Of a stretch of DNA of 64,000 bases, positions 3,635-63,046 are shown one piece after another. Below the pieces are notes generated by a model. It was not told where the DNA came from and searched no databases. It worked only from the letters and a program-made list of their open reading frames with translations. Every line of letters begins with the position of its first letter. Within the stretch, counting starts at the first letter, position 1. The translations under genes and the position numbers were made by a program. The DNA comes from Malania oleifera (taxonomy: Eukaryota; Streptophyta; Magnoliopsida; Santalales; Ximeniaceae): contig NC_080423.1 of the NCBI RefSeq assembly GCF_029873635.1, positions 88,519,191 through 88,583,190 of the forward strand, written 5' to 3'.

Positions 3635-5560
3635 ATGAACATTCAGCCTCTTTATGGGTTTCTTCTCATCATCTGGTTATCGATCGCCGGCCGGAGCATC
3701 GTAAAATCTGAGAATCACATTGAAGTAGGGTACAGGGTTATGATGGAGGTGCCGGAGGAGTACAGGTATGGATTCGTGGGGAGGGCGTACCTGATGGAGG
3801 CGAAGCAGGCGGCGGAGCCCAAGTTCAGGGCGGCATTGAGCGTGGAGGGTGTGGAGGGGAACAGGTACGCGTGCTCACTGGAGGTGTTCCTGGGGGATGT
3901 CAGGGTATGGAGCTCCGGCCATCTGTCCAGGTTCTACACGGCGGAGAAGTGCGTCGTGGAGCTGACGGAGAAGGGGGATTTGAGGCTGAAGGGCCCCCAG
4001 GAGAGGCTTGGATGGCGAACCGCCACTTCTGGACAAGGTGTGCAGGTACAATTTGTCTTTCTAAGTCAACTCTGTTTGTCTGATGTTTCAATTCCCATAC
4101 GCAACTTTACACCTCCATCGCCACACACACACACACTCACACAACAAAAATCACTTGTCTAGATAACCAATCTAAATTTATTTTATTTTATTTTTTGAAA
4201 AAAACAATGACCTAAAGTAAAAATGACTAATTGAAAAATATTTAAAATTTAAATATTTGTGTGTGTGTGTGTGTGTTTTGACATTTATCATTTTCAGGCT
4301 TTACACAAAACAACTCCCACACTGGGGGCGGGTGGGGGGGGTGTGAAAAAAAGGAAAAGGGTAAAAGAGGAATAGAACATTCCGTCTTATTGATTTTGTA
4401 ACATGTGAAATTTCTTTCCTTCACCATCAATCTCACGCATACATGTTTTGGGTCTTTTGAGATTTATCTACTTTAGGGTTCGTACCTAAAAAGGGACAAA
4501 GCATTAGGTCAGTTCTGTTTTTGCACTATGTGGTGTTAATTTTATGCCAACTTGGATGCAGAGATTGAGGTTGTTGAAGAATGGAAATCTGGTTTTAGTT
4601 GATTCCCTGAACCGCATCAAATGGCAGAGCTTCAATTACCCAACAGACGTATTGCTGTGGGGTCAGAGTGTGGAGGTTGCCACTCGCTTGACTTCATTCC
4701 CTACCAACTCAACTTCTTTCTACTCTCTTGAGATTCAAAATGACAAGGTTGCCTTGTACTTGAACTCTGGTAACATGCAATATTCTTACTGGGATTTCAA
4801 GCCTTCTTCCACCCGAAACATCACTTTTGTTGAGGTGGGCACGAGAGGGTTGGAGTTTTTCGATGATAAAAACCGAAAATTTGCGCTAATTCCATCGCAG
4901 CGACTGGAACCAGTTCGCTTTTTGGCATTGGGGAATAGAACAGGGAACTTGGAACTCTTTTTCTACTCGACTGAAAAGGAGAAGTTTGAGGCCTCTTTTC
5001 AAGCACTAAAGACTACTTGTGACCTCCCAATGGCTTGTAAGCCTTACGGCATCTGTACCTTCTCCGATGCTTGTTTGTGCCTCCAGATTGCAGCGAGGCA
5101 GGGCCGGATGGTTTCCAACTGTAGTGAGGGAATTCCTAGTGGATTCTGCGAGAGAGGCGAGGCGGAGATGCTCGAGCTAGAAGGGGTGAGCAGCGTGCTG
5201 AGGGGTGTGTCGAGCAGTGTTAATATTAGCAAGGAAGCTTGCACGGCGTTATGCATCGACAACTGCAACTGCACTGCTGCATTGTATTCCTCCGGTGAAG
5301 GTACGAACAGAGAATTGCAGGAATGCTTTCTATATGGATTTGTCGGAGGGGTGAAACAGGTTCGGACAGGAATAGGGTTAAGTTATTTGGTGAAGGTTCC
5401 AAAGGGAACAGGCGGTGATCATGGGAAGAGTTCTGGTCTAAAGAAATGGGTGTTGATAATGGTAGCAGTGGCTGATGTTTTCATTATTTTTATGGCTTTG
5501 GGAGGGCTTGGTCTCTATCTAATCAGAAAGAGAAGAAAGGACCTGCCTGACAGATCATAG
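3635..5560 (+). CDS. PAN/apple and B-lectin domain membrane protein (At5g03700-like), two exons
   Basis: Exons 3635-4045 and 4562-5560 are joined by a phase-0 GT-AG intron (CAG|GTACAA to GGATGCAG|AGA) and encode 469 residues, close to the roughly 480 of Arabidopsis At5g03700. A hydrophobic signal peptide covers residues 1 to about 25. A degenerate bulb-lectin domain follows, with LLKNGNLVLVD at 141-151 and the hallmark SFNYPTDVLLWGQ at 160-172. A cysteine-rich segment lies at about 290-311 and a PAN/apple domain with paired cysteines at about 333-419. A single transmembrane helix spans about 433-458, ending in a basic RKRRK tail. There is no kinase domain, which is normal for this subfamily. 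The family is related to S-locus glycoproteins and EP1. The product should sit in the plasma membrane with its lectin and PAN parts outside; its ligand is unknown. The first ATG in frame before the signal peptide was chosen as start. The frame is intact. Confidence 0.88.
4046..4561 (+). other. Intron with CA/GT microsatellites and a G-run block
   Basis: This is the intron of the PAN/lectin gene (516 bp). It carries a (CA)n run at about 4122-4140, a (GT)n run at about 4258-4276, and a G-rich block at 4324-4341 with runs of 5, 3 and 8 G. The CA and GT runs are complementary and about 120 nt apart, so the transcript could fold on itself there. Confidence 0.8.
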
Positions 5561-12238: not shown

Positions 12239-12243
12239 GATTG

Positions 12244-12418
12244 TGAAAACCGAATGGAATTTTTGTATTTCTTTTAATAAATTTGTACAGACCAATTTAC
12301 AATATTTATAATACAATCGGAAGATCTAAATATGGAAATAATCTCCTAAACAAATCTCTCTCAATAATATACAATATATACTTCCCTAATTTACTCCAAG
12401 ATATTTGGGATTTCTACA
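12244..12418 (-). repeat. 3' LTR of the chimeric copia element
   Basis: Read on the minus strand it runs TGTAGAAATCCC to GGTTTTCA. It is nearly identical to 16769-16948, differing mainly by a few substitutions and small indels. Confidence 0.93.
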
Positions 12419-12425
12419 CTCCCCC

Positions 12426-12957
12426 TCAAGTTGGATCATAGATATTGATCATATCCAACTTGCAAATGAAATCATCAAAACTCTGACGAGCTAGCCCTTT
12501 AGTAAAGATGTCCGCAATTTGTTCCTTGGTAGATACATAAGTCAGACAGATGGTTCCTTCTTCAACCTTCTCTTTGATAAAATGTCGGTCCACTTCTGCA
12601 TGCTTGGTCTTGTCATGTTGAATTGGATTGAGAAAGATACTGATGGCTGCTTTGTTGTCACAATAGAGTTTGATAGGGAACTTCACCGAGATTTGTAATT
12701 CTTCCAAGAGTTTCCGTAACCATAGTCCTTCACATATCCCTTATGCAACTGGCCTAAATTCAACTTCAGCATTGCTTCGAGCCACTACATTCTATTTTTT
12801 GCTGCTCCAAATTACCAAATTTTCCCATACAAAAGTGCAATATCCGGTGGTAGACCTTCTATCTTCTGCTGATCCTGCCCAATCCGCATCTGTGAAAATT
12901 TCCACTTCCTTGCTTTCACATTTCTTAAAAAAGAGTCCTTTGCCGGAGAACCCTTGA
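12426..12957 (-). pseudogene. copia RNase H domain, broken
   Basis: Two overlapping frames encode the end of a copia RNase H, with LYCDNKAAISI, KHAEVDRHFIKEKV and QIADIFTKGL, the conserved last third of the polyprotein. In the live enzyme it degrades RNA in RNA-DNA hybrids during reverse transcription. A frame break near 12700-12815 separates it from the upstream part. It lies next to the polypurine tract as expected. Confidence 0.85.
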
Positions 12958-14276
12958 GATACATACGGGTCTTAAACACAACATCTAGGTGAGTCCTCTT
13001 TGGTGAATGCATGTGTTGACTTACCACACTTACTGCAAATGCAATGTCGGGTCTAGTATGCAATAGGTAAATTAGTTTACTAACCAATCTCTGATACCTC
13101 TCCTTTTCAACTGGTATTCTGCAGTCTTCGACCCTCTTTACTATTTCAATCGGGGTTTCACTAGGTTTGCATCCAAGCATGCTAGCTTTGGTTAGGAGAT
13201 CAAGGATATACTTTCGCTGAGAGACACTGATACCCTTTTTTGATCTAACAACTTCCATTCCCAAGAAGTACTGCATTTGTCCCAGATCTTTAACTTCAAC
13301 TCAGCAGCTAGGACTTTCTTTAATTTTTCTATCTCCATTGTATCATTTCCAGTTAGGATTATATTATCAACATACACTACCCGAATTGTTTTCTTACCAC
13401 TTTCAGACTGTTGGAAGAACATAGTGTGATTTGATTGCCCTTGTCGATATCCTTGATTCTTTATCACTTTCGCAAATTTGTCGAACCATGCTTTGGGAGA
13501 TTGCTTGAGTCCATACAAGAACTTCTTGAGTTTACACACTTTGTTTTCTTCACCTTTCTTACTGAAACCTGGTGGTATTATCATGTAGACTTCTTCTTCT
13601 AACTAGCCATTTAGAAATGCATTCTTAATGTCGAGTTGCTGTAGTGGTCAATCTAAGTTAGTTGCCAAGGACAGGAGGACTCAAACTGTATTACTGGTGC
13701 AAATGTCTCTATGTAGTCAATGTCATAGGTCTGTGTAAACCCTTTTGCAATGAGTCTGACTTTATATCGTTCAACTGTCCCATCAGCTCTATATTTCATT
13801 GTGAGGACCCATTTACAACCAACTGGCTTCTTCCCTCTTGGCAAATTCATAACGTCCCAAGTTTCATTCTTTTCTAGAGCCCACATTTCTTCCATGACAA
13901 CTTCCCTCCATTTAGGAATCTCTAAGGCTTCTTGGATATTCTTTGGAATTTTCATCCGGTCAAGGTTAGAAGTAAAAGCACGATATTTTGTAGACAGGCT
14001 TTTATAAAATATGTATTTTGACCAGGGATATTGAGTACATGACTTGGTTTGTTTTCTAACTGCAATGGGTAAATTGATGTCATCAGGTACAGGCTTATCA
14101 GAAGGGAGCTCATGACCATCTATTACCTGATCGAGATTGGGCATGCACTCATGGTTGCTCAGAGTTATCACCAATTCCAACTCTCTTGGTACCTCAGGTA
14201 TGAGATTCTCCCCATTCTTTGTGTTTGACTTTCTTGAGTAAACAAGTATTTTTGTGTTGTTTTTTTTTTTCTGCAT
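12958..14276 (-). pseudogene. copia reverse transcriptase, broken
   Basis: The upstream part (13653-14276) has WREVVMEEMWALEKNETW, a W-x-L fingers region and GCKWVLTMKYRADGTVERYK. The middle part (13192-13584) has LKKFLYGLKQSPKAWF and the catalytic motif as YVDN in place of YVDD. A further piece (12812-13276) has YFLGMEVVRSKKGI and HTRPDIAFAVSVVSQ. Frameshifts separate the pieces. The changed catalytic aspartate and the breaks mean it cannot be active. Confidence 0.85.
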
Positions 14277-15420
14277 CTCCCCTTGAGGTTAAGTGATCTT
14301 TTGTACACGACAGGTCAGGAAATGATGCAATGGTAGACTCAGTGTATGGCACAAATTCATCAACAGAGAAATCAAAGAACCGATCTTCACTCAATTTCTC
14401 TCCCTGAAGAGAGAGCTTTGGGAAGTAAGGAATGGTTTCAAAGAACGTGACATCAAGGCTAACAAACAATTTTTTTGTGACAGGATCAAAACATTTGTAG
14501 CCTTTCTGAGTAAGAGAGTAACCAATTAAAACGAACTTAATGACACAATGTTCCAATTTATCCCGATTGTGAGCATGAACATGAACAAATGCAGTACATC
14601 CAAAGATTTTCATAGAGAGATTAGAATGGAGCTGAGTGTTGGGAAACCATTCGTGGAGTTTCCGGAGAGGAATGGCAAAAGAAAGAACTCGACTAGGCAT
14701 TCAATTAATGAGATGTGTAGTTGTTAAAATGGCATCGCCCCAAAAATATTTTTTCATATTTGTAGTGAACATCAACGCCCAAGCTACTTCAAGAATATGC
14801 CTATTTTTACATTCAACAACCCTATTTTGTTTAGGGGTATCCACACAGGAACTTTGATGAACAATTCCATTTTCTTGAAGATAATGTCCTAAGATATCAT
14901 TGAAATATTCCGTACCATTATCAATATGTTAAATTTGAATGTGAGTTTGAAATTGTGTTTGAATCATGGAGTGGAAACTGACAAAAATAGAACGGACTTC
15001 AGTTTTATCTTTCAACAAGTAAACCTAACAAATATGAGTATGATCATCAATAAAAGTAACAAACCATCTCGTGTGAGTACGATTAAGAGAGTGTGAGGGC
15101 TCCCATAAATCACTATGAATCATAGTAAAGGGTGTGAATGGTTTGTATGTGGATTTTGGAAAGGAATTATGCTAGTGTTTTGCAAGTTCACAAATCTCAC
15201 ACTGAAATTCATAAGACGTTTTATTTGAAAAAATGGAAAGATGTAAACGTCTTAGATATTGAAATTTTGGATGACCCATTCTAGAATGCCATAACAAAAT
15301 TTCACTATCACTAGAAACAGATGCAGAATCACAAATAGTAGTTTTACATTATTCACTCACATTAGCCTCCTCAAAGTAGTAGAGTCCCTCATACTCCTTA
15401 GCACTGCCAATCGTCTTCCC
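14277..15420 (-). pseudogene. copia integrase, broken
   Basis: The minus strand holds a degenerate copia integrase. The C-terminal part (14194-14700) has KIFGCTAFVHVH and KLEHCVIKFVLIGYS followed by KGYKCFDPVTKKLFVS, typical of the region after the core. Upstream, around 14820-14930, a YFNDILGHYLQENGIVHQ-like stretch and NRVVECKNRHILEVA correspond to the end of the catalytic core. A zinc-finger-like segment with CEICELAKH is near 15170-15290. Several stops interrupt it. Confidence 0.75.
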
Positions 15421-15423
15421 TGA

Positions 15424-15748
15424 TTACGGGTCCTGAAAAACACAATGAGAGGGAAGAAATTTTACAGAACAATTGGAGTTCTTAGTTAATTGGCTAATGG
15501 ATAGTAAGTTACAACATAAATTAGGAATATGAAGAACGGACTTTAGTATGATGGAGTCAGAGAGTCGCATATTCCCTTTGCCTACGACAGACGAGAGTGA
15601 TCCATCTGCAATTTTAACTTTCAAATTTCCAGCACAGGGTGAATATGATGAGAAAGGATGATAGGCATCGATCATGTGGTCAGAAGCACTAGAATCAATA
15701 ATCCAAGGAGTTTTGGATTTAGAGGTTATATTCAAGGCTTGCAAAAAA
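15424..15748 (-). pseudogene. copia aspartic protease
   Basis: The frame 15424-15879 reads through PWIIDSSASDHMI (about 15671-15710). This is the copia protease active site with DSS in place of the usual DSG. It is followed by LKVKIADGSLSSVVGKG and LCCNLLSISQLTKN. Upstream the same open frame continues without a stop into the captured GlyRS sequence, so protease and host sequence are fused in frame over at least 40 codons. Confidence 0.8.
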
Positions 15749-15813
15749 TTACCTCTTTGGGCAAAAGAACCCAAAGAAGTTACCTCTTTGGGCAAATTAC
15801 CTCTTTGGGCAAA
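15749..15813. repeat. 17-bp unit, three copies, at the host/copia junction
   Basis: TTACCTCTTTGGGCAAA occurs at 15749-15765, 15780-15796 and 15797-15813, the last two adjoining. The repeat lies exactly where the captured synthetase sequence meets the copia protease region. Confidence 0.95.
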
Positions 15814-16307
15814 TTCAACACGACCTGAAGCTTTCAGTACAACTTCTAGGGTTACAAATGGACAATCAACCTCCAACATGCTCTCCTCAAGAACAAAATG
15901 CTAAGACTAGAAGGCCAGCACATTGGCTTTAACGGCACGGCTAGGGGGTCCATAGTCGTAGAGCCTGCAACATCATGACAAATCTTGAAAGACGGGATGC
16001 AGAAGAGACGGCGCTCGAGAGTGTTAACCACCGCCTGTCGAAAATCTTCCTTGCTGAGAGCGCCATCGCCGCTGCCGTTGCTAGGGTTCGTGGAGGAGAG
16101 AAGTGCGTGAAGCTGACGCTCGATGGAGGCCTTCTCCAGCTTGAGGGCGTTCAAGGCTTCGACTGGGGAATCAATAAGCTTCTTAGCCGCACCGACCGCC
16201 TTCAACGTCCTCACGGCGCCGCCTTGGGCTTTGATGGCTGATTGCTTCTCGAAGAGTGCTCTGCGGAGGGCTTCTTTGATGGCCAATTGCTTCTCGGAGA
16301 GTGCTTT
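15811..16307 (-). pseudogene. Captured glycyl-tRNA synthetase fragment (WHEP domain and catalytic start)
   Basis: The minus strand encodes the N-terminal part of plant cytosolic/mitochondrial class II glycyl-tRNA synthetase. First comes a WHEP helix-turn-helix ([18 protein letters not shown], then AVRTLKAV), then a lysine-rich linker, then the start of the catalytic domain VVNTLERRLFCIPSFKI. After a one-base frameshift at about 15955-15970 the sequence continues in the next frame as a LYDYGPP-like stretch and MLEVDCPFVTLEVVLKASG. No intron-like sequence interrupts it, suggesting an mRNA origin. It stops abruptly at about 15811, where the 17-bp repeats begin. Parts of the WHEP helix are duplicated (16229-16259 and 16274-16304). 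The real enzyme charges tRNA-Gly; this fragment lacks most of the active site and cannot. Confidence 0.88.
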
Positions 16308-16558
16308 GGGAGGTGTGGCCTTTGCCCTTGACGCAGATGCCCATGTCAACTCCATTGTAGCGGTGACGGCTGAGCAGGAGGATGGGTTCTAGCGCCTTGT
16401 AGCAATAGGACTTTTGGAACATGGTGCGAGTACTGCAACCACCGAACTTCTTGGGTTCGCACCGCCGGGGATCGGCAACAAGGAGGGTCCGGTCGTAGCG
16501 AACCAAGATGTTCTTCTGGTAGAAGGCGACGAGGGCCTTGGTGATGCTCTGGCGGAGG
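16307..16558 (-). pseudogene. Captured ribosomal protein uS9 (RPS16) sequence in permuted order
   Basis: One open minus-strand frame holds two adjoining pieces of cytosolic 40S protein S16 (uS9). The first (16402-16558) is the C-terminal part: [15 protein letters not shown], then [18 protein letters not shown] and PKKFGG, ending FQKSYC where uS9 ends with SYR. The second (16307-16401) is the part that should come before it: [23 protein letters not shown]. The order is swapped relative to the normal protein. About 11 codons are missing between FYQK and ILVRY. GlyRS sequence follows directly in a shifted frame. uS9 sits in the head of the small ribosomal subunit; this copy cannot serve that role. 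Confidence 0.88.
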
Positions 16559-16650
16559 CACCGATCGAGACGGAGGTAGCCCGATGCAACGACAACGCCG
16601 GTGACGATAAGGAATACAACGCAGGTGATGAAGAGGAATCCATGGAGTTC
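16559..16650 (-). pseudogene. Possible third captured fragment, hydrophobic segment
   Basis: In the same frame as the uS9 piece, the minus strand encodes a strongly hydrophobic run ([17 protein letters not shown], then GYLRLDR). Its codons end mostly in C, G or T, as in real coding DNA and unlike copia sequence here. It looks like a membrane helix of some host protein. I do not recognise which. Confidence 0.4.
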
Positions 16651-16733
16651 TCAAACCTTGTGAAACTCTGTTGGAGGACCTCGTGAGATTCAGAGGTAAT
16701 CAAACCTCTACTTTGGCCGAGGGTTTCCGCCAT
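16651..16733 (-). other. Leader frame after the primer-binding site
   Basis: The first ATG after the primer-binding site (16733) opens a frame beginning MAETLGQSRGLITSESHEVL that continues 114 codons to 16389 in a frame different from that of the hydrophobic and uS9 pieces. It stands where gag should begin but shows no gag motif. It may be the retained first codons of gag or another host piece. Confidence 0.4.
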
Positions 16734-16749
16734 TGGTAGCTAGGTTTAA

Positions 16750-16768
16750 TCTCCTAGCTCTAATACCA
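16750..16768 (-). other. Primer-binding site of the chimeric copia element
   Basis: TGGTATTAGAGCTAGGAG on the minus strand touches the inner end of the 5' LTR. It matches the initiator-tRNA-Met complementary site TGGTATCAGAGC with one change. Confidence 0.9.
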
Positions 16769-16948
16769 TGAAAACAGAATGAAATTTCTGTATTTCTTTT
16801 AATAAAATTGTACAGACCAATTTACAATATTTATAATCGTAAGATCTAAATATGGAAATAATCTCCTAAACAAATCTCTCTCAATAATATGCAATATATA
16901 CTTCCCTAAATTACTCCAAGATATTTGAAGACATTTGGGATTTCTACA
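16769..16948 (-). repeat. 5' LTR of the chimeric copia element
   Basis: Read on the minus strand it starts TGTAGAAATCCC and ends CTGTTTTCA. It has a short extra AAATGTCTTC-like insertion compared with the 3' LTR. Confidence 0.93.
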
Positions 16949-17114
16949 GATTGCCTCACTAGATAAGACAGCAATGATAATTTGTAAGCCAAAATAAAGC
17001 TGGGTAGCTAACCATGCTTAAATTAATCAGTATTTTGACCCAGATTACCACAGATAAAGCATGAAGAAAACAGTAAGCACTAGATATATCCAATAGTGCT
17101 TTTAGGTGGAAGTT

Positions 17115-18980: not shown

Positions 18981-20720
18981 ATGACACACTTAGGTGTATC
19001 TCCCTTTACTGAGGGCCAATCCTCATCTATACCACCTATTTTTTGCGATGTTAAACTACACCTTTTGGAAACAACAGATGAGAATATACTTACAAACTAT
19101 GGATTGGAAAGCTTGGAAAGTAGTCACACATGGTAATCTCATCCCCACTAAAACATTGGATAATAAAAAAATACCTAAGAAAGAAAAAGAGATGACTAAT
19201 AACAATCTAAAGATGCTGCAAGTAAATTCAAGTACTATGAATGCACTATATTGTGCTCTAGATGTGAATGAGTTCAATAGAATTATGGGATACAAATCAG
19301 TCAAAGAAATATGGGATAAACTTGAAGTAACCTATGAAGAAACGGTTAATGTAAGAGATAGTAGAATTGGCATGCTCACTAGCGAGTATAAGGCATTTAA
19401 GATGAACCCTGATGAAACCATCACTAGTATGTACACTAGGTTCACCCACATAATAAACTCACTCAATGCCTTTGGGAAAGACTACTCTACATATAAGATG
19501 ATCCAAAAGATCCTTAAAGGACTTCCACCTATTTGGGAACCTAAAGCCACTGCAATTACGGAAGGAAGAAACTTGAAAAACACCTCCCTTGATGAATTAA
19601 TAGGATCACTCCTCACATATGAGATGGCAATAAATGAAAGAAAATATGAAAATAATAAACACAAGAAATTAATAGCTCTTAAGGCTGCTAAAGAAAGTTC
19701 TAGTGAAGAAGAAGACAACGAATTAGGTGACGATGATATAGCCTTCATTACTAGAAGACTTGGAAAATTCTTCAAAAGGAATAAGAAGTTCACTCGAAAA
19801 TTTAAAGGTTTAAAATCTGATAAAGGGGAGACAAGCAAAAAGGAAACAAAGAATGAACCCCCTACATGTTATAACTACAAAAAGGTTGGACATATTAAAC
19901 CTGATTGTCCACAGCTTAAGAAATATGCCAAGAAGAATAAAAAGAAGGCGATGAAAGCTACATGGGATGACTCAAGCTCAAGTGAATCAGAGAATGAATC
20001 AAGCGATCAAGATATGGCAAACCTCTACTTCATGGCAAGAGATAATGAGGTAAATTCCTACTCTAACTCACAAGAAGATGAATCTAGTGATGAATCATGT
20101 AGTGACTCATGTGAAAGCATGCCTTGATATAGAGAAATGCAAGTTAAATTATTCTCTTTGCATAATAGATTTATAAAAGTAATCAAAAGAAATATAGCAT
20201 TGAAAGAACAAAATGAAATGCTAAAGAAACAGCTAGAGACTTCAATATCAGCTGAAAAAGAAAAGGACTCACACATTGATGATCTTATGAGTAAAATAAA
20301 TAAAATATCTCAAGACTTAGTAAAGCTTCAAGTAAATGGTGAAAGTAACAAAGACTCAGAGATAAGTGATCTTGAGAGCAAAATTGAAGACAAAGATAGA
20401 ATCATCTACAATTTCACTAGAGGAAAAGAAAATTTTGATAAACTGATTGGATCACAAAGAATGTCCTTGGATAAAGAAGGAATAGGATTCAATGGAGTAG
20501 AAAATAAGAAGAAAAAGAATCTATACATGAGTTATTTTGTAAGGCATCAAAGAACTATGCTAGTACATCTTCCACCAATGCATATGAACATACTACTTGC
20601 TTCTTGTGTAAGAAAAAAGGACACATAAAGTTTGATTGTTCATTTAAAAGGAAAAATATTAAAATCAAGAAAGTATGGAGAATCAAAACTGAAAATAAAA
20701 CTGAATTAAAAAGACTTAAG
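18981..20720 (+). pseudogene. gag of SIRE copy 1, frameshifted
   Basis: The natural start appears to be ATG 18981 (MTHLGVSPFTEGQ). A one-base shift at about 19050 moves the sequence into the long frame 18994-20127, with NYTFWKQQMRIYLQTMDWKAW (first 20 residues typical of this gag family), a capsid-like domain, an acidic/basic tail and a zinc knuckle in which the second cysteine is Tyr (CYNYKKVGHIKPDC). After a stop at 20125 a coiled-coil segment follows (20137-20500) and, after another shift, a second intact knuckle CFLCKKKGHIKFDC at about 20602-20643. In a live element the product would build the virus-like particle and bind the RNA. Confidence 0.85.
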
Positions 20721-20763
20721 AAGGCTTGAGTACCAAAAGTAACACCTTGAACCCTTCTTGTAG

Positions 20764-23700
20764 GTGTGTTTTAGGACCACTCCATCAAAAGACAAATGGT
20801 ACTTGGATAGTGGATATTCAAGACACATGACCGGAGACAAATCAAAATTTACCACATTAATACAAAAAGATGTACATGTCACATTCGAAGACAATGCTAA
20901 AGGTAGAATAATCTGTATCAGAAAAGAAGGTAAAGAACCCTCCTTAACTATTGATGATGTTTTATTAGTTGATGGGTTGAAACATAATCAACTCAGCATT
21001 AGTCAATTAAGTGATAAAGGATTTGATGTAATATTTAAACAAAACAAATGCATGGTTGAAAACTCAGAAAAGAATAAAATCTTGTTCATTGCAAACAGAG
21101 TTGATAATGTGTATTGTATAAACTTTGAAAATCTAATATCTCAAGAAGTCACATGCTTAACAGCCATGAATGAAACTAGCTGGCTGTGGCATAGAAGACT
21201 AGGACACACTAGTATGAATTTATTATCTAAATTAACTAAAAAGAACTTAGTAAAAGGTCTACCCGGCACAAAGTTCGTAAAAGACAAAATTTGTGATGCT
21301 TGCCAACTTGGGAAGCAAACTAAAACAAGTTTTAAAAAGAAGAAACATATTTCCACTAGTAGACCCTTGGAACTTATCCATCTAGATTTATTTGGCCCTA
21401 CTAGAACACAAAGCATAGGAGGAAAGCAATATGCTTTCGTCATAGTTGATGACTACTCCAGGTTTACTTGGATACTCTTCTTAGCCTCCAAAGATGAAGC
21501 TTGCAAGATGTTAATAAACTTATGCAAAAAGCTCCAAAACGAAAAAGGATATGGAATTCTAAAAATAAGAAGTGATCAAGGAAAAGAATTCAAAAATAAA
21601 GAAGTTGATAAATTCTGTGATGAATATGGAATAAATCACAATTTTTAGCACCTCGAACTCCTTAAAAAAATGGAGTTGTTGAAAGAAAGAATAGGTCTCT
21701 TCAAGAAATGGCTAGGACTATGTTAAATGAACAAAATTTACCTAAGTACTTTTGGGTTGAAGTTGTAAACACCGCTTGTTATGTGATGAATAGAGTGTCT
21801 CTTAGATCAAACCTAGAGAAGTCTCCCTATGAACTATGGAAAGGAAGAAGGCCTAACATATCTTACTTTCACGTATTTGGATGTAAATGTTTTGTATTGA
21901 ATGATAAAGAGGACTTAGGAAAATTTGATGCAAAAGAAGATGAAGGAATATTCTTAGGTTATGCATTAAATAGTAACGCTTTTAGAGTCTATAACAAAAG
22001 GACTCTCACAATCATAGAATCAATACATGTAGCCTTTGATGAAGCAAATCCATTCTCAGAACCACCGGAGATTGAAGAAGATGAAATTAAGGAAGGTCTA
22101 AATGACTTAAAAATTCAAGAAGTAAAGGATGAGAACAAAGAACTGAGTTTAACTTCAGATGATAGACCTCTAGACCAAACAGAACTACCTAAAGAATGGA
22201 AGTTTGTGAGAAATCACCCAAAAAACCAAATCATTGGTGAACCTTCACGAGGAGTATCTACCAGATCCTCATTGAAAAATTTGTGTAATCACTATGCGTT
22301 TTTATCTCAGAAGGAACCCAAGAACATAGATGAAGCATTAAGTAATGACTCTTGGATAATAGCTATGCAAGAAGAACTAAATCAGTTTGAAAGAAGTAAA
22401 GTATGGAAATTAGTTCCTAGACCCGATGACCATTCAGTAATAGGAACCAAATGGGTATTTAGAAATAAAAAGGATAAAAACGGAATTGTAGTGCGTAACA
22501 AGGCTAGACTCGTTGCTCAAGGATATAATCAAGAAAAAGGAATAGACTCTGATGAGACTTTTGCACCTGTAGCAAGAATGGAAGCCATAAGAATGCTATT
22601 AGCTTATGCTTCTCACAAAGATTTTAAACTTTATCAAATGGATGTAAAGAGTGCATTCTTAAATGGATTTATAAATAAAGAAGTCTATGTAGCACAACCT
22701 CTAGGATTTGAGGATGATCATTGTCCTAATCATGTGTACAGATTAACAAAAGCATTATATGGACTAAAACAAGCCCCTAGAGTTTGGTATGAGCGGTTGG
22801 TGGATTTCTATTGGATAATGACTTTTCTAGAGGAAAAGTGCACAACGCATTGTTTATCAAATCTAAAAATGAAGATATTCTTATTATTCAAATCTATGTG
22901 GATGATATCATTTTTGGTGCTACAAACGAAGATCTATGCAAAAATTTTGCGAAGTGTATGCAGGATGAATTTGAAATGAGTATGATGGGAGAGTTGACTT
23001 ACTTCCTAGCACTTCAAATTACACAAAGTAAAAATGAAACTTTCATAAATCAATCAAAATACATGAGTGACATGTTTAAGAAATTCGATATGGAAGGTGG
23101 AAAACCTTTAGGGACTCCTATGAGTACGTCAATAATTTTTGAGAAAGATGAACAAGGAAAGTCGATAGATATGAAATTCTACCAAGGTATGATAGGAAGT
23201 TTGTTTTATTTGACAGCCAGTAGATAGGACATTATGTCTAGTGTATGTATGTGTGCCCGGTTTCAAGCAGCCCCTAAGGAATCACACCAGATAGCCGTCA
23301 AAAGAATCTTAAGATATCTGATAGATACTATCGACTTAGGTCTATGGTATCCTAAAGACAAAGGATTTGAAATGATCAACTATTCAGATGCGGACTATGC
23401 TGGATGTAAAATTGATCGAAAAAGCACAAGTGGTACTTGCCACTTTCTGGGAAGATCTCTTGTATCTTGGTTCTCCAAGAAACAAAATTCGGTAGCACTA
23501 TCTACTATGGAAACTAAGTATGTGACAGCGGGTAGCTATTGTGCACAAACTCTCTACATGAAGCAATAATTAAAGGATTTTAATTTGGAGTATTCAGCTG
23601 TACCTATAAATAATATCTCCAAAAATCTCATATCTCACTCAAGAACCAACCATATAGACATAAGGCATCATTTCTTAAGAGATCATGTGCAAAAAAGAAG

Positions 23701-27058: not shown

Positions 27059-28922
27059 TGTTAACCTAACAAGGCTTACGAATCTTATTTTGATGATAAC
27101 AAATCAAGGGAATTTAACATGTTCTGGTTAAAGTGATGATGTTTCAGGAATCAAGCATTAGAGTTCAAGATCAAGTGATCACAAAGAGTTATTGAAAGCT
27201 TACATTCCAAAGACAGGTGATCAAAAGAAAGCTCAAAAGATCAAAGATTGACACATCTTATGAAAGCTTAAAGAATATTGAAGCTCAATGTCAAGATGAA
27301 CTCAAAGAAAGACATACATGAAGACTTCACATTTAGAATGATTCAGTCTTAAGAAAGTCTTCTGTAAGTACTTCAATTGAAAGTCAATACGAATGCTTTG
27401 AAGCTCTTTAGGAATGATTATAGATTAGAGACCCATTTTTAAAATCTTAGAAAATACATTTTTCAAATTTCAAATCAAAGATTCCAAGATTAAAAGCTAA
27501 AAGAGTTTCCAGAAACAAAATCTTAAAAACAGTAAAATTGCATGCTCAAGCGCATGACTGAGTTTTCTCAGGCGACTGACCTTTTATATGGTTTTTTAAG
27601 AAATGCAAACAAAACCATGACAGGTGCCTCACAGATCCTTCTTAGGTGACTGACTAAACACTCTCAGGTGCCTGACATAGCACTGACTTTTGAAATTCAC
27701 TGGATTTTTAAAGGGACAGGCGCCTGACACCTTTTTGACAGGCGAAGCAGCGAGGGAAACTTTCCAAAAATGATTGCTTGGGTTCCAAACTTTGTATAAA
27801 CTTAGAAAATACTCCAAGTAAACTTGGGCAACACGAAATTACTTTTAGAACTCTATAAATTCATGGAAAACCAAAGAATTTTTAGACAACTGCATACAAT
27901 CAGCAATCAAAGTCTATAATTCTCATACTCTTCAAAAGCTCTCTTGCTCACACATTCTTGCTGAAGTTTTACTGAGTTTCTGCTAATACAACCACATGGT
28001 TCTTGTGTTCTGACTAAGATTTTTCAATCTAAAAGAAGAACCGGGTGATTAATTTCTTGAGCTTCAAATTCATTCTTTATTGATATTTAATTTGACGTAT
28101 ACTAGTTGTGCTTAAACTCGTACTCATCAGCTCTGTTTTGAGAGTCTTTGTACACAAGAATTGTTCTTGTTCTTGAAGTTTTTTAACGGTTCAGGTTTGT
28201 TGAATCGTTGGATTACCGAGCGTGGGGTATCGCTTGGAGTGGAGGGCTCCATCCTACTTAAAGGAGTGTGTAAGAGGTTTGCTCCGCCCGGTCAAGAGAG
28301 CAGTATAGTGTAATCCTTGGGTGGTGAACCTAAGGCGAGGGCATAGGTGGGTATAGCCAAACCTCGTAAAAATCTCGGTGTCACTCTCTTCCCTATTCTC
28401 TTTAATTTTCTGCATATATAAACTGCGTGGTTGTGTACTTTATGTGCTGAAAATTAATTTGCGTTTCGGAATTGCGGAAACCATAAGGAAGTACGTTGAT
28501 TGATCAATATTATATTGTGGAAACCGCGAGGGAGTACGTTGATTGATTAATACCAAAGTTCATTCATATATTGGTTGGTTACATACTTAAATTCAAGATA
28601 CTTATTTGATATCAATATTTGAATTTTGGAAGCTTGGTTGAATACCTTATTGATTGAATTGATATTGAAAAGCTAGAATTTGAATATTGAAGTTTTGATC
28701 ATCATCGTCATTCATCAATCAATACTAAATCTTGGATTGAGTGTTGATTATTACAAATAAATTGTACTTGTGAAGTTGTTGTGTTGTAGAGTATGATTGC
28801 AAATTAACTCAAATTGAAAAGGGGGTTAATATTTAACTAAAAGAATTTGTAAAACAAGAATTTACAAAGAAAGTTTTAAAAACCCAATTCACCCCCCTCT
28901 TGGGAGTACACCTTACTTTTCA
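27059..28922 (+). mobile_element. Solo LTR, SIRE-type subfamily B, TSD CAAAA
   Basis: A single LTR from TGTTAACCTAAC to CCTTACTTTTCA is flanked by CAAAA at 27054-27058 and 28923-28927. It is the product of recombination between two LTRs of one insertion. It has AGGCGACTGACC-like words at 27560-27730, a TATAAAT box at 27854, the paired hairpins at 28315-28366, and the CCCAATTCACCCCCCTCTTGG terminus (split here for length: CCCAATTCACCCC then CCTCTTGG). Confidence 0.93.
28315..28366 (+). promoter_or_regulatory. Two abutting potential RNA hairpins in LTR B1
   Basis: Hairpin 1: CCTTGGG (28315-28321) pairs with CCTAAGG (28329-28335), one G-U. Hairpin 2: CGAGG (28336-28340) pairs with CCTCG (28362-28366), with an inner three-base stem. 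The same pair occurs in other LTRs of the window with compensating changes. Role unknown; perhaps packaging, dimerisation or polyadenylation of the element RNA. Confidence 0.6.
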
Positions 28923-47345: not shown

Positions 47346-48830
47346 AATAACAACAACAACAACAACAACAAGCCTTGGGTCCCATTAGATGGGGTTGGCC
47401 ATATGAATCTTTTTTCGCCAATTCACTTTATCAAGAGCATTTTCCTCTACTAGAAATCCTTCCTCACCACCCCATAACAAGTTATTTTTAAAGTCTATCC
47501 CTACCTTTTTTCAAGCCAAAAAACAATAACTAACACACTCCTCCTCACAAGTGCATTATTAAATTTATGTTTCAAATGCCCACACCATCTAAACCACCCT
47601 TCCCTTATCTCGTCCTCGACCAATGCTACGCCTAAATTATTGCATATATGCTCGCTTCTTAGTTTATCTTTTAATGTTATACCACTCATCCACCTTAACA
47701 TTCACATTTCAGCAACTTTTACTTTTTGTATATGTTATTTCTTAATTGCCCAACATTTTAAACCATAAAGCATAGCTGGCCTTAAGAGTCATTCTATAGA
47801 ACTTTCCTTTTAATTTTAAGAGTATTCTACAATCACACAAAACACCTAACACACTCCTTCATTTTACTCAACCTGCTTTAACTCTATGTATTACATCCTC
47901 TTCAATTTCCCCTTTTGCTAGCATAATGGATCCACGATATTAAAATCTATAAGTTTTATTAATTTATTAATTATCAAGTTTAATCTTCTCTCCATTACTC
48001 CCCCTTACATTACTAAAATTACATTTCATATATTCTATTTTATTCCTACTTATCCTAAAAATTTTAGACTCTAAAACATTTCTCCAAAGTTTTAACTTAG
48101 ATTCCATTTCACTCCTACATTTATCAATCAAGATAATATTATCTGCAAACAAAATACACCAAGGGATCTTGTTTTGGATACTTCTAGTAAGTTTATCAAT
48201 CATTAAAGTAAGAAAATAAGGACACAAAGTAGAACCTTGATGTACACCTATTGTGATTGGAAAATCTCTAAATTCCCCTCCTACAGTCCTAGCGTTAGTC
48301 ATTACTCTATCATACATACCCTTAATGACCATACCCCCCCTTTTTTTTTTCTAAGACCAACCAAAGAATTTCCCTAGATACTCTATCATTTGCTTTCTCT
48401 AAATCAATAAAAACTATATGCAAGTTCCTATTCTTTTTCCTAAACTTTCCCATTATTCTTTTTAAAAAATAAATAGCTATCTTCAACACATAAAACCAAA
48501 TTGATTCTCTAAAACCCTTGTTTCTAATCTTATTCTTTGTTCATCATATGACTTATAATCTTAATTCCACAATAGTTATTATAATTTTGAATATCACCTC
48601 TGTTTTTGCATTTTTTTATTTTTAAAATAATATTGAATAAATTAGTTAACCATATACTTCCTTTACCTCCTAAATATTTCCAAACTTCAATTGGTTAGTT
48701 TTCTGGTCCTATAAATTTTCCACTTTTTATCTTTTTAAAGTCATCTTCATTTCAAGTACTCTAAGTTTATAAATAAATCTCCTATTTTTAGTCTCCTCAT
48801 TTGTAGTTCAATCTTTCAACTTAATTTTCA
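47346..48830 (-). mobile_element. RTE-type LINE, 5'-truncated, with (TTG)n tail
   Basis: The plus strand shows (AAC)n at 47347-47370 then AAGCCTTGGGTCCCATTAG, the reverse of an RTE 3' end with a TTG-repeat tail. Minus frames encode RT pieces: GVHQGSTLCPYFLTLMIDKL, IPWCILFADNIILID (FADN for the usual FADD), WRNVLESKIFRISRNK (47967-48332). The C-terminal RWMSGITLKDKLRSEHI with EGWFRWCGHL lies at 47501-47701. Upstream the homology fades at about 48830. The LINE has the same orientation as the partial gene to its right. Confidence 0.85.
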
Positions 48831-57235: not shown

Positions 57236-59145
57236 TGTTGGCCTAATAAGGTTTACGAATCTTATTTTGATGATAAAAAATCAAGGGAATTTAACATACT
57301 TTGGTTGAAGTGATGATGTTTCAGGAATCAAGTATTAGAGTTCAAGATCAAGGGATCACAAAGAGTTATTGAAAGCTTACATTCCAAAGACAAGTGATCA
57401 AAAGAAAGCTCAAAAGATCAAAGATTGACAAATTTTATAAAAGCTTAAAGAATATTAAGCTCAAGGTCAAGATAGACTCAAAGAACGACATACATGAAGA
57501 CATCACATTTAGAATGATTAACTCTTAAGAAAGTCTTATGTAAGTACTTCAATTGAAAGTCAATACGGATGCTTTGAAACTCTTTAGGAATGATTATAGA
57601 CTTAGAGACCCATTTTTAAAACCTTGGAAAATAAATTTTTCAAATTTCAAATCAAAGATTCCAAGATTAAAAGTAAAAAGAGTTTTCAAAAACAAAATCT
57701 TAAAAACAGTAAAATTGCATGCTCAGGCGCCTGACTAAGTTTTCTCAAGTGACTGACCTTTTATATGGTTTTTAACAAACGCAAACAGAACCATGACAGG
57801 CGCCTCATAGATCCTTCTCAGGCGACTGACAGGTTTCTAAGGTTGAGTCAGGCGACTGACTAAACACTCTCAGGCATCTAACACAGTACTGACTTTGAAA
57901 TTCGCTGGATTTTTAAAGGGATAGGCGCCTGACACCTTTTTGACAGGTGATCGTAAAATTTAAAATAAAGCAGCATGAGAAACTTTCCAAAAATGATTGC
58001 TTAGACTCCAAACTTTGTATAAACTTGGGAAATACTCCAAGTAAACTTGGGCAACACGAAATTACTTTTAGAACTCTATAAATACATGGAAAACCAAAGG
58101 ATTTTTAGATAACTACATACAATCAGCAATTAAAGTCTATAATTCTCATACTCTTTAAAAGCTCTCTTGCTCTCACATTCTTGCTGAAGTTTTACTGAGT
58201 TTCTATTGATACAACCACACGGTTCTTGTGTTTTTATTGAGATTTTCAATCTAAAGGAAGAACCCAGGGATTAATTTCGTGAGCTTCAAATTCATTCTTT
58301 ATTGATATTTAATTTGAAGTATATTAGCTTTGCTTAAACTTTTACTAATCAACTTATTTTGAGAGTGTCTTTGTACACAAGAATTGGTCTTATTCTTATT
58401 GTTTTTTAACATTTCAGGTTTGTCAAATTGTTGGATTACCGAGCGTGGACTATTGCTTGGAGAGGAGGGCTACATCCTACTTGAAGGAGTGTGTAAGAGG
58501 TTTGCTCCGCCTGATCAAGGGAGCGGTATAGTTTAATCCTTGGGTGGTGAACTTAAGGCAAGGACGTAGGCAGGTATAGCCGAACCTTGTAAAAATCTCG
58601 GTGTCACTCTCTTCCCTATTCTTTTTAATTTTCTGTATATATAAACTGCGGGGTTGTGTACTTAATTTGCTGAAAATTAATTTGCTTTTGAGAATTGTGG
58701 AAACCGTAAGGGAGTACGTTGATTGATCAATATTATATTGCGGAAACTGCAGGGGAGTGCGTTGATTGATTAATACCAAAGCTCATTAATATATTGTTTG
58801 GTTACATACTTAAATTCAAGATACTTATTTGATATCAATATTTGAATTTTGGAAGCTTGGTTGATTACCTTATTGATTGGAATGATAATGAAAAGCTAGA
58901 ATTTGAATATTGAAGTTTTGATCATCATCATCATTCTTCAATCAATACTAAATCTTGGATTGAGTGTTGGTTATTACAAATCAATTGTACTTGTGAAGTT
59001 GTTGTGTTGTAGAGTGTGATTGCAAATTAACTTAAATTGAAAAGGGGGTTAATACTAAACTAAAAGAATTTGTAAAACATGAATTTACAAAGAAAGTTTT
59101 AAAAACCCAATTCACCCCCCTTTTGGGAGTACACCTTACTTTTCA
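57236..59145 (+). mobile_element. Nested solo LTR, subfamily B, TSD AGTTT
   Basis: An LTR from TGTTGGCCTAATAAGG to CCTTACTTTTCA lies inside the integrase coding region, flanked by AGTTT at 57231-57235 and 59146-59150. SIRE copy 1 shows the empty site at about 21326-21345, with a single AGTTT between ACAAG and TAAAAAGAAG. It is very similar to 27059-28922, has many AGGCGACTGACC-like words at 57722-57950, a CTCTATAAATACATGG box at about 58075 and the paired hairpins at 58538-58589. Confidence 0.95.
58538..58589 (+). promoter_or_regulatory. Two abutting potential RNA hairpins in LTR B2
   Basis: Hairpin 1: CCTTGGG with CTTAAGG (two G-U). Hairpin 2: CAAGG (58559-58563) with CCTTG (58585-58589), a compensated change from CGAGG/CCTCG in its sister LTR B1; inner GGC/GCC is kept. 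Confidence 0.65.
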
Positions 59146-61545
59146 AGTTTTAAAAAGAAGAAACACATTTCCACTAGTAGGCCCTTAGAACTTATCCAAT
59201 TAGATTTATTTGGCCCTACTAGAACACAAAGTCTAGGAGGAAAGCAATATGCTTTCTTCATTGTTGATGACTACTTCAGGTTTACCTGGGTACTCTTCTT
59301 AGCCTCCAAAGATGAAGCTTGCAAGATGTTAATTAACTTGTGCAAGAGACTCCAAAATGAAAAAGGGTATGGAGTTCTAAATATCACAAGTGATCAAGGA
59401 AGAGAATTTAAAAATAAAGAAGTTGATAAATTTTGTAATAAACATGGAATAAATCACAATTTTTCAGCACCTCAAACTCCTCAACAAAACGGAGTTGTTG
59501 AAAGGAAGAATAGGTCTCTTCAAGAAATGGCTAAGACCATGCTTAATGAGCATAAATTACCTATGTATTTTGAGTTTCCATAAGATCACGCCTAGATAAG
59601 ACCCCCTATGAACTATGGAAAGGAAGACAACCTAACATATCTTATTTGATACAAAACAGATAGAGGAATCTTCCTAGGGTATGCATTACATAGTAAAGAA
59701 TTCAGAATCTACAACAAAAGAACACTCACAATCATAGAATCAATACATGTAGCCTTTGATGAGGCAAATTCATTCACTAAAACAATTGACATTGAGGAAG
59801 CTGAAACAATACAAAAACTAGAAAACTTAGAAATTAAAGAAATAAAAATGAGAACAATGAATGAACCTCAAATGATGAACCAACATATAAATTTGAACTA
59901 CTTAATGATTGGAAGTTTGTAAGAAATCATCCAAAAGACCAAATCATTGGTGAACCTTCACGTGGTGTGTTCACTAGATCCTCATTGAAAAATCTATATA
60001 ATCATTACACATTTCTATCTCAAGAGGAACCCAAAAATATAGAAGAAGCCTTAAGTGATGATTCTTGGATAGTAGCTATGCAAGAAGAATGAAATCAGTT
60101 TGAAAGAAATAAAGTATGGAATTTAGTTCATAGACCCACTGATCATTTAGTAATTGGAACCAAATGGGTATTTAGGAATAAAAAGGATGAAAACGGTATG
60201 GTGGTACGTAATAAAGATAGACTTGTAGCTCAATGATATAATCAAGAAGAAGGAATAGACTACAATGAGACCTTTGCCCCCGTAGCTAGAATGGAAGTCA
60301 TAAGAATGTTATTATCCTATGCATCTCACAAAGAATTCAAACTCTATCAAATGGATTTATAAATGAAAAAGTCTATGTGGCACAACCTCCAAGTTTTGAG
60401 GATATTCATAACCCTAATCTTGTGTTTAGATTAACAAAAGCTCTATACAAACTAAAACAAGCCCCCAGAGCTTGGTATGAAAGGTTGAGTGGATTTCTAT
60501 TGGATAATGGTTTTTTCTAGAGGAAAAGTGGACAACACATTGTTTATTAAATCTAAAAACGAAGATATGCTTATGATTCAAATCTATGTGGATGATATCA
60601 TTTTTGGTGCTACAAATGAAGATCTATGTAAAGACTTTGCACAGTTTATGCAAGATGAATTTGAAATGAGTATGATGGGAGAATTGACTTACTTCCTAGG
60701 ACTTTAGATTAAGCAAGCTAAAAATGGAACCTTCATAAATCAATCAAAATATATAAGGGATATACTTAAGAAGTTTGATATGGAAGGTAGCAAACCTATA
60801 GGAACCCCAATGAGTACGTCTATAAATCTTGGTAAGGATGAAAAAGGAAAACCGGTAGATATGAAATATTACTGAAGCATGATAGGAAGTCTACTATATT
60901 TGACAGATAGTAGACCAAACATTATGTTTAGTGTATGTATATGTGCCCGATTTTAGGCAGCCCCTAAGGAATCTCACCAAATAGCCATCTAAAGAATCTT
61001 AAGATATTTAATAGGTACTATTGACTTGGGTCTATGGTATCCTAAGGACACTAGCTTTGAGGTGATCAATTATTCAGATGCTAATTATGCTAGATGTAAA
61101 ATTGATAGAAAAAGCACAAGTGATACTTGCCACATTCTAGGAAGATCTCCTGTGTCTTGGTTCTCCACGAAACAAAATTTCGTAGCCCTATCTACTGTTG
61201 AAACTGAATATGTGGTAGCAGGTGACTGTTGTGCACAAACTCTCTATATGAAGCAACAATTAAAAGATTTCAATTTGGAATATTCAGCTATACCTATAAA
61301 GTGTGATAATACCAGCGCCATAAATATTTCCAAAAATCCCATATCACACTTAAGAACCAAGCATATAGACATAAAACATCACTTCTTAAGAGATCATGTG
61401 CAAAAAGAAGACATCTTACTTGAATTTGTGAATACAGGGGATTAATGGGCTGATATATTTACAAAACCTCATCTAGAGGATAGGTTTATCTTTACAAGAC
61501 TTGAACTAGGCTTATTGCACAATAGAGAAGTTGTTTAAAGAGAAA
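59146..61545 (+). pseudogene. SIRE copy 2: integrase core, RT, RNase H
   Basis: Integrase core resumes after the nested LTR (LDLFGPTRT, VDDYFRFTW, SDQGREFKN and [20 protein letters not shown], 59326-59583). A deletion near 59575-59660 removes integrase sequence. RT has lost a few codons around 60355, but [17 protein letters not shown] (60573-60623) is intact. RNase H at 61026-61445 is one open frame (SDANYARCKIDRKSTSDT, CDNTSAINISKNPISHL, KHIDIKHHFLRDHV). Stops elsewhere are numerous. Confidence 0.88.
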
Positions 61546-61972
61546 ATTGGATGTGAAGCCAATAAATTATAGGAAGGAGAGTGAGGTCAGGTGACTGAAA
61601 AATAAGTTGCAGTCGACTGAACTCTCTATGACTTTCTTAGTTTTTAAGATTAGTAAGGTCAAGCAACTAACACTCTGAGCCTCAATCAGCTGACTCGCTA
61701 CTATCTGGGTAAATTTAAATGTGCTAAAATTGTCAAGTGACTGACCCTCGATATTAGTTGACTGACTGACGGCAGTTTAAATACCAAATGTGTGCAAAAC
61801 CCTAACTTTTCAATCCTTCAGGCTCCTGACTCTATTTCTCACATCTCATACACCTATTCTCCTTCGATCAAAAGTGCTCCTTCACTCAAAATCCTCCGTT
61901 TAATTTCTGAAGAACATTATCCTACTTCATTCTCATCAAATTTTAAAGGATTTCATTATTCATATTTCATCA

Positions 61973-63046
61973 TGCCAAGAACAAAAAATACAGCGCAAAA
62001 CATTCTACTTCGGGGAAGGATGACAGCAACAATATTGAGAAATGGCTTGTAGCTCCAAATGTGAAGCGGCTATACAGAGAGCATCTTCGTTCAACTGAAT
62101 CTATTCTTGGTAAGGTCTTAGACCTGACTTTCTTTGAAGAATACTTTCCCAATATTTTACCCATTTTTAGAACCCTACGATGGAAAAAGTTTATTACTTA
62201 TCAGGCTAAAGGACTATATTCAAACTTAGTCAAAAATTTTTATGCAAATATGGTTAAAGGAGACACAGTAACCACTACCGAAGTCATAGGAAAAGCAATT
62301 GCCCTTACACCACAAACCTTAGCAACAATTTTCAATATTAGACAAGGTGAGTTTGAGTGTCCATATTTTGGACAATCTTGGATTATGGCACAAGATTTCA
62401 CCCCTGAAGAATTTCTACCACTAATCATGTCTGTAGAACCTATCTATTTTGGTCATCCTTCATTATACAAATAACTTAATCTTTAGGCACAAATCCTATA
62501 CAAGTTGATTACATTTTGCCTCAAGTAGGATCACACGACTACATGTTATATTTAGATTGTTTTGTCATGTGGTGCTTACTCAAAGGGAAAAAGTTTGATT
62601 TACCAAGCTTAATTCTCAAATGGATGATCTCTAGAGCAGAAGCCTGTAGAGTAATTCTTCCACATGGTGGCATTCAGAATCTCATATTTGCTTATCTAAA
62701 CATCACTTCTCCATCTAAACTCTTCATTAAGCAAATCTATTGTGATCTCTTTTCATCCACTACTCTTAAGCAACTGGGTTATGAGAAATATGAGGAAGGA
62801 TGGTTTCCTAAATTGGGTAGAAGACAAAGACAAGTTCCTGATCCATAACCACCTATTTAGCAACCAGCTCCGCAACCTGCTCCTCAAGTTGGTGATGCAC
62901 CTTCATGGTTCCTTGCTTATCATCAACAATTCACTAATTTTACTGGAGAAATGAGTTTTGTACTTAGCACACTTTAGGACAATTTTGCATCTCTTCAAGT
63001 TAACTACTCTTCACTGGATCAACGACTTGGTCGTATTGAGCATTAA
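61973..63046 (+). pseudogene. Extra 3' ORF of SIRE copy 2
   Basis: This is a better preserved version of the ORF at 24226-25289. After a frameshift near the start (MPRTKNTA), the frame 62061-62474 runs 137 codons: KRLYREHLRSTESILGKVLD, WKKFITYQAKGLYSNLVKNF, YANMVKGDTVTTTEVIGKAI, ALTPQTLATIFNIRQGEFEC. A further frame (62516-62848) adds DYMLYLDCFVMWCLLKGKK and FDLPSLILKWMISRAEA, and the end has the SLDQRLGRIEH coiled coil. The layout fits the plant 'putative transposon protein' domain. Function unknown. Confidence 0.7.

Follow-up and report, generated by a model that had tools for sequence, protein, structure and literature searches.

Pieces of two host genes, uS9 and glycyl-tRNA synthetase, inside a decayed copia retrotransposon of Malania oleifera

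How pieces of two unrelated host genes came to lie between the long terminal repeats (LTRs) of one plant retrotransposon is the question raised by a locus of Malania oleifera (Santalales, Ximeniaceae), whose genome assembly is described as 1.5 Gb in size with 28.9% Copia (passage of PMC10199050). The window analyzed here is a stretch of 64,000 nucleotides of contig NC_080423.1, and all coordinates are counted from its first letter.

A copia frame around a host-like block

The window contains a 4.7-kb Ty1/copia LTR retrotransposon on the minus strand with a host-like block inside it (Table 1). The original prediction had placed an insert at 15811-16558, between the primer-binding site (PBS) and the protease of an element whose LTRs are bounded by a perfect GATTG duplication. 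Both copies of the duplication are present, and the block, which is about 740 bp long and runs from 15814 to 16554-16560 between the start of gag and the protease, agrees with the predicted range and position. The LTRs have TG..CA termini next to this 5-bp target duplication, and an alignment of the two shows 7 differences over 170 sites as well as two indels (K2P 0.042); no further LTR copy was found within the 64-kb window. The 5′ LTR is followed by a PBS, TGGTATTAGAGC, which we take to be a match to initiator Met tRNA, and the 3′ LTR is preceded by a polypurine tract (PPT), the purine run GAGGGGGAG adjoining it. The G+C content is 36-42% outside the host-like block and rises sharply to 51-60% within it.

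Read along the minus strand, the 5′ LTR and PBS are followed by an ATG at 16733, the host-like block, the protease region, the GAG-pre-integrase domain, an integrase motif, an SH3-like domain, RVT_2, RNase H motifs, the PPT and the 3′ LTR. This corresponds to the copia order of protease, integrase, reverse transcriptase and RNase H, with Pfam matches to Pol_BBD, gag_pre-integrs, SH3_retrovirus and RVT_2. Integrase lying ahead of reverse transcriptase is a mark of copia elements, and the assignment was made on this basis. The integrase core and RNase H were placed by motif patterns that we presume to be diagnostic, and TPWIIDSSASDHM at 15673-15711 (minus strand) is presumably the protease motif. 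A Pfam scan of 14701-14928, 12426-12740 and 12792-12971 gave no match.

Since pol is broken up into several frames and contains stops, this copy of the element is dead. None of the four ORFs scanned between the PBS and the protease matched a gag family in Pfam, and a loose scan of 15600-16760 on the minus strand found no zinc-knuckle pattern; these scans thus gave no gag with capsid and nucleocapsid, and the element is therefore read as a defective, non-autonomous copy. In P0248, a relative of the protease region, a zinc-knuckle-like stretch was seen by eye upstream of the protease. Given this stretch, together with the lack of such a stretch and of any gag family match in the scans of the present element, it seems that most of gag has been replaced by the host block. 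Words from the GlyRS tail were absent from the best 120 of 157 relatives of the protease ORF.

Table 1. Features of the Malania element and the captured block
Feature	Position	Strand	Basis or remark
Target-site duplication GATTG, left	12239-12243		
3′ LTR, 175 bp	12244-12418	-	
Polypurine tract TTGAGGGGGAG, adjoining 3′ LTR	12419-12429	-	
Broken pol: integrase end, SH3-like domain, reverse transcriptase (RVT_2), RNase H motifs	12492-14928	-	
GAG-pre-integrase domain	15172-15348	-	Pfam, E 1.5e-14
Protease region	15427-15768	-	Pfam Pol_BBD
17-nt unit, three identical copies, GlyRS/pol junction	15749-15765, 15780-15796, 15797-15813	-	
GlyRS second-exon part (HFVLEESMLEVDCPFVTLEVVLKASGRVE)	15814-15900	-	
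Spliced join, inferred GlyRS intron site of relatives	15900-15901	-	Relatives' proteins
GlyRS first-exon part with WHEP domain; frameshift and two stops near end	15901-16307	-	
45-nt tandem duplication, uS9/GlyRS junction	16229-16313	-	
uS9 middle piece, residues 51-82	16306-16401	-	P0127 numbering
uS9 C-terminal piece, residues 87-148	16402-16554	-	P0127 numbering
Leader holding 24-nt tandem duplication (16592-16639)	16561-16639	-	
Database model P0113, uS9-like, 164 aa	16183-16733	-	Implied 56-nt intron 16650-16705
Gag-like frame start, ATG at 16733, MAETLGQSRG...	16640-16733	-	Gag identity from position only
Primer-binding site TGGTATTAGAGC	16757-16768	-	
5′ LTR, 180 bp	16769-16948	-	
Target-site duplication GATTG, right	16949-16953		

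The uS9 and GlyRS pieces and their decay

The minus strand was predicted to encode ribosomal protein uS9 (RPS16), and ORF 16183-16650(-) indeed matches plant uS9 chains (E 7e-30, 8auv) and the Pfam family Ribosomal_S9 (E 5.7e-12). The order of the uS9 pieces is swapped in the element, with residues 87-148 coming first and residues 51-82 second, so that the outer ends of the uS9 block (82 and 87) are separated by only 4 residues in the parent. The first piece also carries a 33-nt deletion that removes 11 residues between 16512 and 16513. Among the best 120 of the 2,585 relatives passing the threshold, the swapped order was found solely in P0113, and the 11-residue deletion in none of the 119 others.

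The predicted WHEP domain and GlyRS similarity were likewise recovered on the minus strand. ORF 15852-16388(-) matches Pfam WHEP-TRS (E 5.3e-08; 33.2 bits, with a cut-off of 32.5) and 112 proteins in a large database (best E 1.9e-30), the named ones being mostly glycyl-tRNA synthetase or hypothetical plant proteins. No GlyRS chain was returned from the PDB at E up to 1, where the highest-ranked entries were a zinc protease (0.011) and several tryptophanyl-tRNA synthetase chains (0.028). The captured part is the N-terminal part of GlyRS and ends in HFVLEESMLEVDCP..VLKASGRVE (15814-15900, minus strand). In 93 of the 112 GlyRS-related proteins, a V directly follows WR[QK] and the sequences then diverge, as read-through of a GT intron donor would give; six have the spliced form WRQHFVL, and the remaining 13 show neither form or end early. 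This places a putative intron on the evidence of proteins from other sources, rather than of DNA or of Malania's own gene. The piece in the window has the spliced form and continues without a gap into HFVLEESMLEVDCP. Because it lacks the intron deduced from the relatives' proteins, the GlyRS part apparently came from spliced RNA. The prediction of two captured cellular mRNAs is partly supported, as regards two unrelated host genes within both LTRs and a probable RNA origin of the GlyRS part; the uS9 matches are largely annotated proteins, which carry no gene-structure information.

We then compared the decay of the block with that of the LTRs. A codon was considered conserved when it was the same in 90% or more of the relatives, and the consensus for the last GlyRS segment came from 3 sequences. 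Among 142 conserved codons, 22 were changed, by at least 23 substitutions, a count that covers neither the codons under the 90% threshold nor most of the WHEP part and that also omits the frameshift and the two stop codons. G>A or C>T accounts for 14 of the 23 minimal changes, and such changes are typical of decaying methylated DNA. The decay of the block exceeds the LTR rate of 7/340 branch sites (p = 0.0013, with 315 block sites if a 0.74 share of codon bases is assumed), which suggests that the chimera moved after forming. The copies of the tandem duplications differ at 8/57 sites compared to 7/170 for the LTRs (p = 0.026), or at 8/74 when the 17-nt repeats are included (p = 0.077); when only transitions at G/C sites are counted, the figures are 6/30 and 3/45 (p = 0.14). 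The block is therefore likely, though not proved, to be older than the last insertion, and base composition may instead explain its excess decay.

Both uS9 and GlyRS lie in the same sense as pol. However, uS9 and most of GlyRS occupy different frames, the last GlyRS part is preceded by a frameshift and two stops, and a fused uS9-GlyRS product would require further splicing or frame shifting. The pieces have also decayed, and nothing points to a function. ORF 16183-16650(-) has 100% identity along its entire length with P0113, "small ribosomal subunit protein uS9-like [Malania oleifera]", a predicted model in which nine codons of the gag-like start are joined to the uS9 frame through a 56-nt intron. 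The chimera is hence public as a Malania uS9-like protein, probably an annotation error due to the transposon, and it illustrates the practical hazard of a decayed transposon being listed in databases as a ribosomal-protein-like gene.

Routes into the element

We consider it quite probable that the block arose by template switching among the copia RNA and two cellular mRNAs, followed by integration and decay. Template switching, which had been proposed from the outset, is supported indirectly by the exchanged positions of the uS9 pieces, by the 33-nt skip and by the tandem duplications near the junctions, and the frame of LTRs, target-site duplication, PBS and PPT that surrounds the host block is consistent with it. 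In such a scenario, a virus-like particle would have contained copia RNA along with mRNAs of uS9 and GlyRS, and the copia reverse transcriptase would have switched templates during synthesis of the first DNA strand, probably in the following order. Coming from the pol side, it would have left the copia RNA just before the protease, copied the spliced GlyRS mRNA to near its own start, and moved to the uS9 mRNA at codon 82. After copying to codon 51, a backward jump would have taken it to where the uS9 coding sequence ends, from which it would have copied to about codon 87 with the 33-nt skip before returning to the copia 5′ end, most of gag being thereby replaced. Integration with the 5-bp duplication could have occurred in the same cycle or in later cycles, presumably helped in trans by other copies, and the functionless block would have decayed since then, probably neutrally.

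Backward jumps of reverse transcriptase could also make tandem repeats, and the swapped uS9 order requires a jump of the same kind. The 45-nt and 17-nt duplications overlap or touch their own joins. The 24-nt duplication is separated by 32-38 nt from the first certain uS9 codons, depending on whether the leader/uS9 join is set at 16554 or 16560, and it reaches this join with a margin of 40 nt but not with margins of 0, 10 or 25. All three junctions thus have a tandem duplication at or no more than 40 nt away from them. With 40-nt margins, the 18 merged tandem arrays cover 4.1% of the window, and the chance of three junction-array matches is about 7e-05, an after-the-fact figure since the nearness was noticed post hoc. 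As the three 17-nt copies are identical whereas the copies of the 24-nt and 45-nt duplications differ at 4/24 and 4/33 sites, respectively, the duplications may not all be of one age.

The leader at 16561-16639(-) contains, besides its 24-nt duplication, a hydrophobic reading frame for which no match was found, and it could be a third captured piece. A search for a third captured gene there found none, as ORF 16389-16739(-) matched no family in Pfam at E up to 1. ORF 16183-16650(-) gave uS9 alone in Pfam, and no second copy of the leader was found within the window.

One point against template switching is that the uS9 ends nearly meet, which separate jumps would reach only by coincidence. A circular or tandem uS9 RNA, or a circularized cDNA, would account for this if a single lap over residues 51-148 had been copied from a template opened between 82 and 87, and LTR sequences are reported to flank circRNA-derived retrocopies in mouse (passage of PMC5408686). 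However, the inner join falls at the last uS9 codon, where back-splicing would require splice sites, and one backward jump plus a coincidence explains the arrangement likewise, the 45-nt duplication showing that a backward jump did occur in the block. A circular template is accordingly unlikely in our view, and a fuller version, in which the copia reverse transcriptase copied circular or end-joined uS9 RNA beside spliced GlyRS mRNA and the element kept transposing without its own gag, is slightly more doubtful still.

The apparent RNA origin of the GlyRS part would also fit a processed pseudogene or chimeric retrogene made by a LINE and inserted into the gag of a resident element. Inspection by eye found no poly-A tract at the edges of the block, and no duplications flanking the block itself were noticed. 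Moreover, the GlyRS part stops within the coding region, uS9 has no start and is swapped, the block replaces gag instead of interrupting it, and it appears older rather than younger than the LTRs, subject to the caveat on composition. We regard this route as very unlikely. Entry as DNA, whether through filler DNA in double-strand-break repair or through gene conversion within the element, is equally hard to accept. Break repair also gives many short pieces with small duplications, but the missing GlyRS intron of the relatives would require cDNA, and a cDNA filler would remain RNA-based. That the block is an assembly join is most improbable, since an error would be needed at each of several separate junctions and the host pieces show a decay that functional genes do not; the sharp rise in G+C would fit such a join but is also what any foreign piece would show, and the presence of the chimera in the database sequence with P0113, presumably from the same assembly, is not independent evidence.

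Precedents and neighboring sequences

Gene capture and template switching in LTR elements have precedents, which are compared here as they appear in passages of the cited papers. One is Bs1 of maize, which carries three host genes (PMC13317346, PMC5408686) and resembles the Malania element, with its uS9 and GlyRS pieces, in holding fragments of more than one host gene in its interior. In contrast, Bs1 is reported to have a chimeric gene that is transcribed and translated (PMC13317346), while the Malania pieces occupy different frames interrupted by stops and one of them is internally swapped. Captures in maize, rice and sorghum likewise consist of gene fragments inside otherwise normal LTR elements, and a maize survey described 425 intact LTR elements with gene fragments, derived from at least 189 captures, none of which contained more than one standard nuclear gene under the survey conditions (PMC2774510). 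The Malania element differs in holding pieces of two. Complexes in Triticeae also involve abnormal template switching in plant LTR elements, yet they join two retroelements rather than host mRNAs (PMC1950507). In LTR-mediated retroposition of metazoans, template switching at microsimilarities links a cellular mRNA to an LTR element and could in theory do so several times (Tan et al. 2016, via PMC5408686); these are animal cases, and Bs1 is the sole plant multi-gene element in that passage of PMC5408686.

The expectation that two captures in one element would be unusual therefore agrees with the 425 maize elements and is tempered by the three genes of Bs1; going by these passages, a two-gene LTR element is rare yet known. 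No mention of the Malania element was found in the open-licence papers searched. It is a real, uncommon and well-preserved record of two host genes captured by a copia element, apparently from RNA in at least one case. Traces of the jumps are still legible in the absence of the intron, the swapped uS9 pieces, the skip and the short duplications close to the junctions. Alongside Bs1, the element provides a second example, from a distant order of plants, in which the entry of cellular mRNAs into retrotransposon particles can be studied.

Other repeats and gene-like sequences were observed elsewhere in the window. A second copia element of another lineage, with gag (Retrotran_gag_2), a protease region and integrase, lies at 18994-23566(+), and stretches resembling it by eye recur at 59083-62845. 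Two tandem arrays whose 43-nt units closely resemble each other, at 28471-28552 and 58694-58775, are 30 kb apart and probably lie within copies of one repeat. ORF 47970-48350(-) resembles, by eye only, a fragment of a LINE-type reverse transcriptase. ORF 4508-5557(+) shows weak similarity, at or below the curated cut-offs, to B-lectin, S-locus glycoprotein and PAN domains and is perhaps a G-type lectin receptor-kinase gene or a remnant of one.
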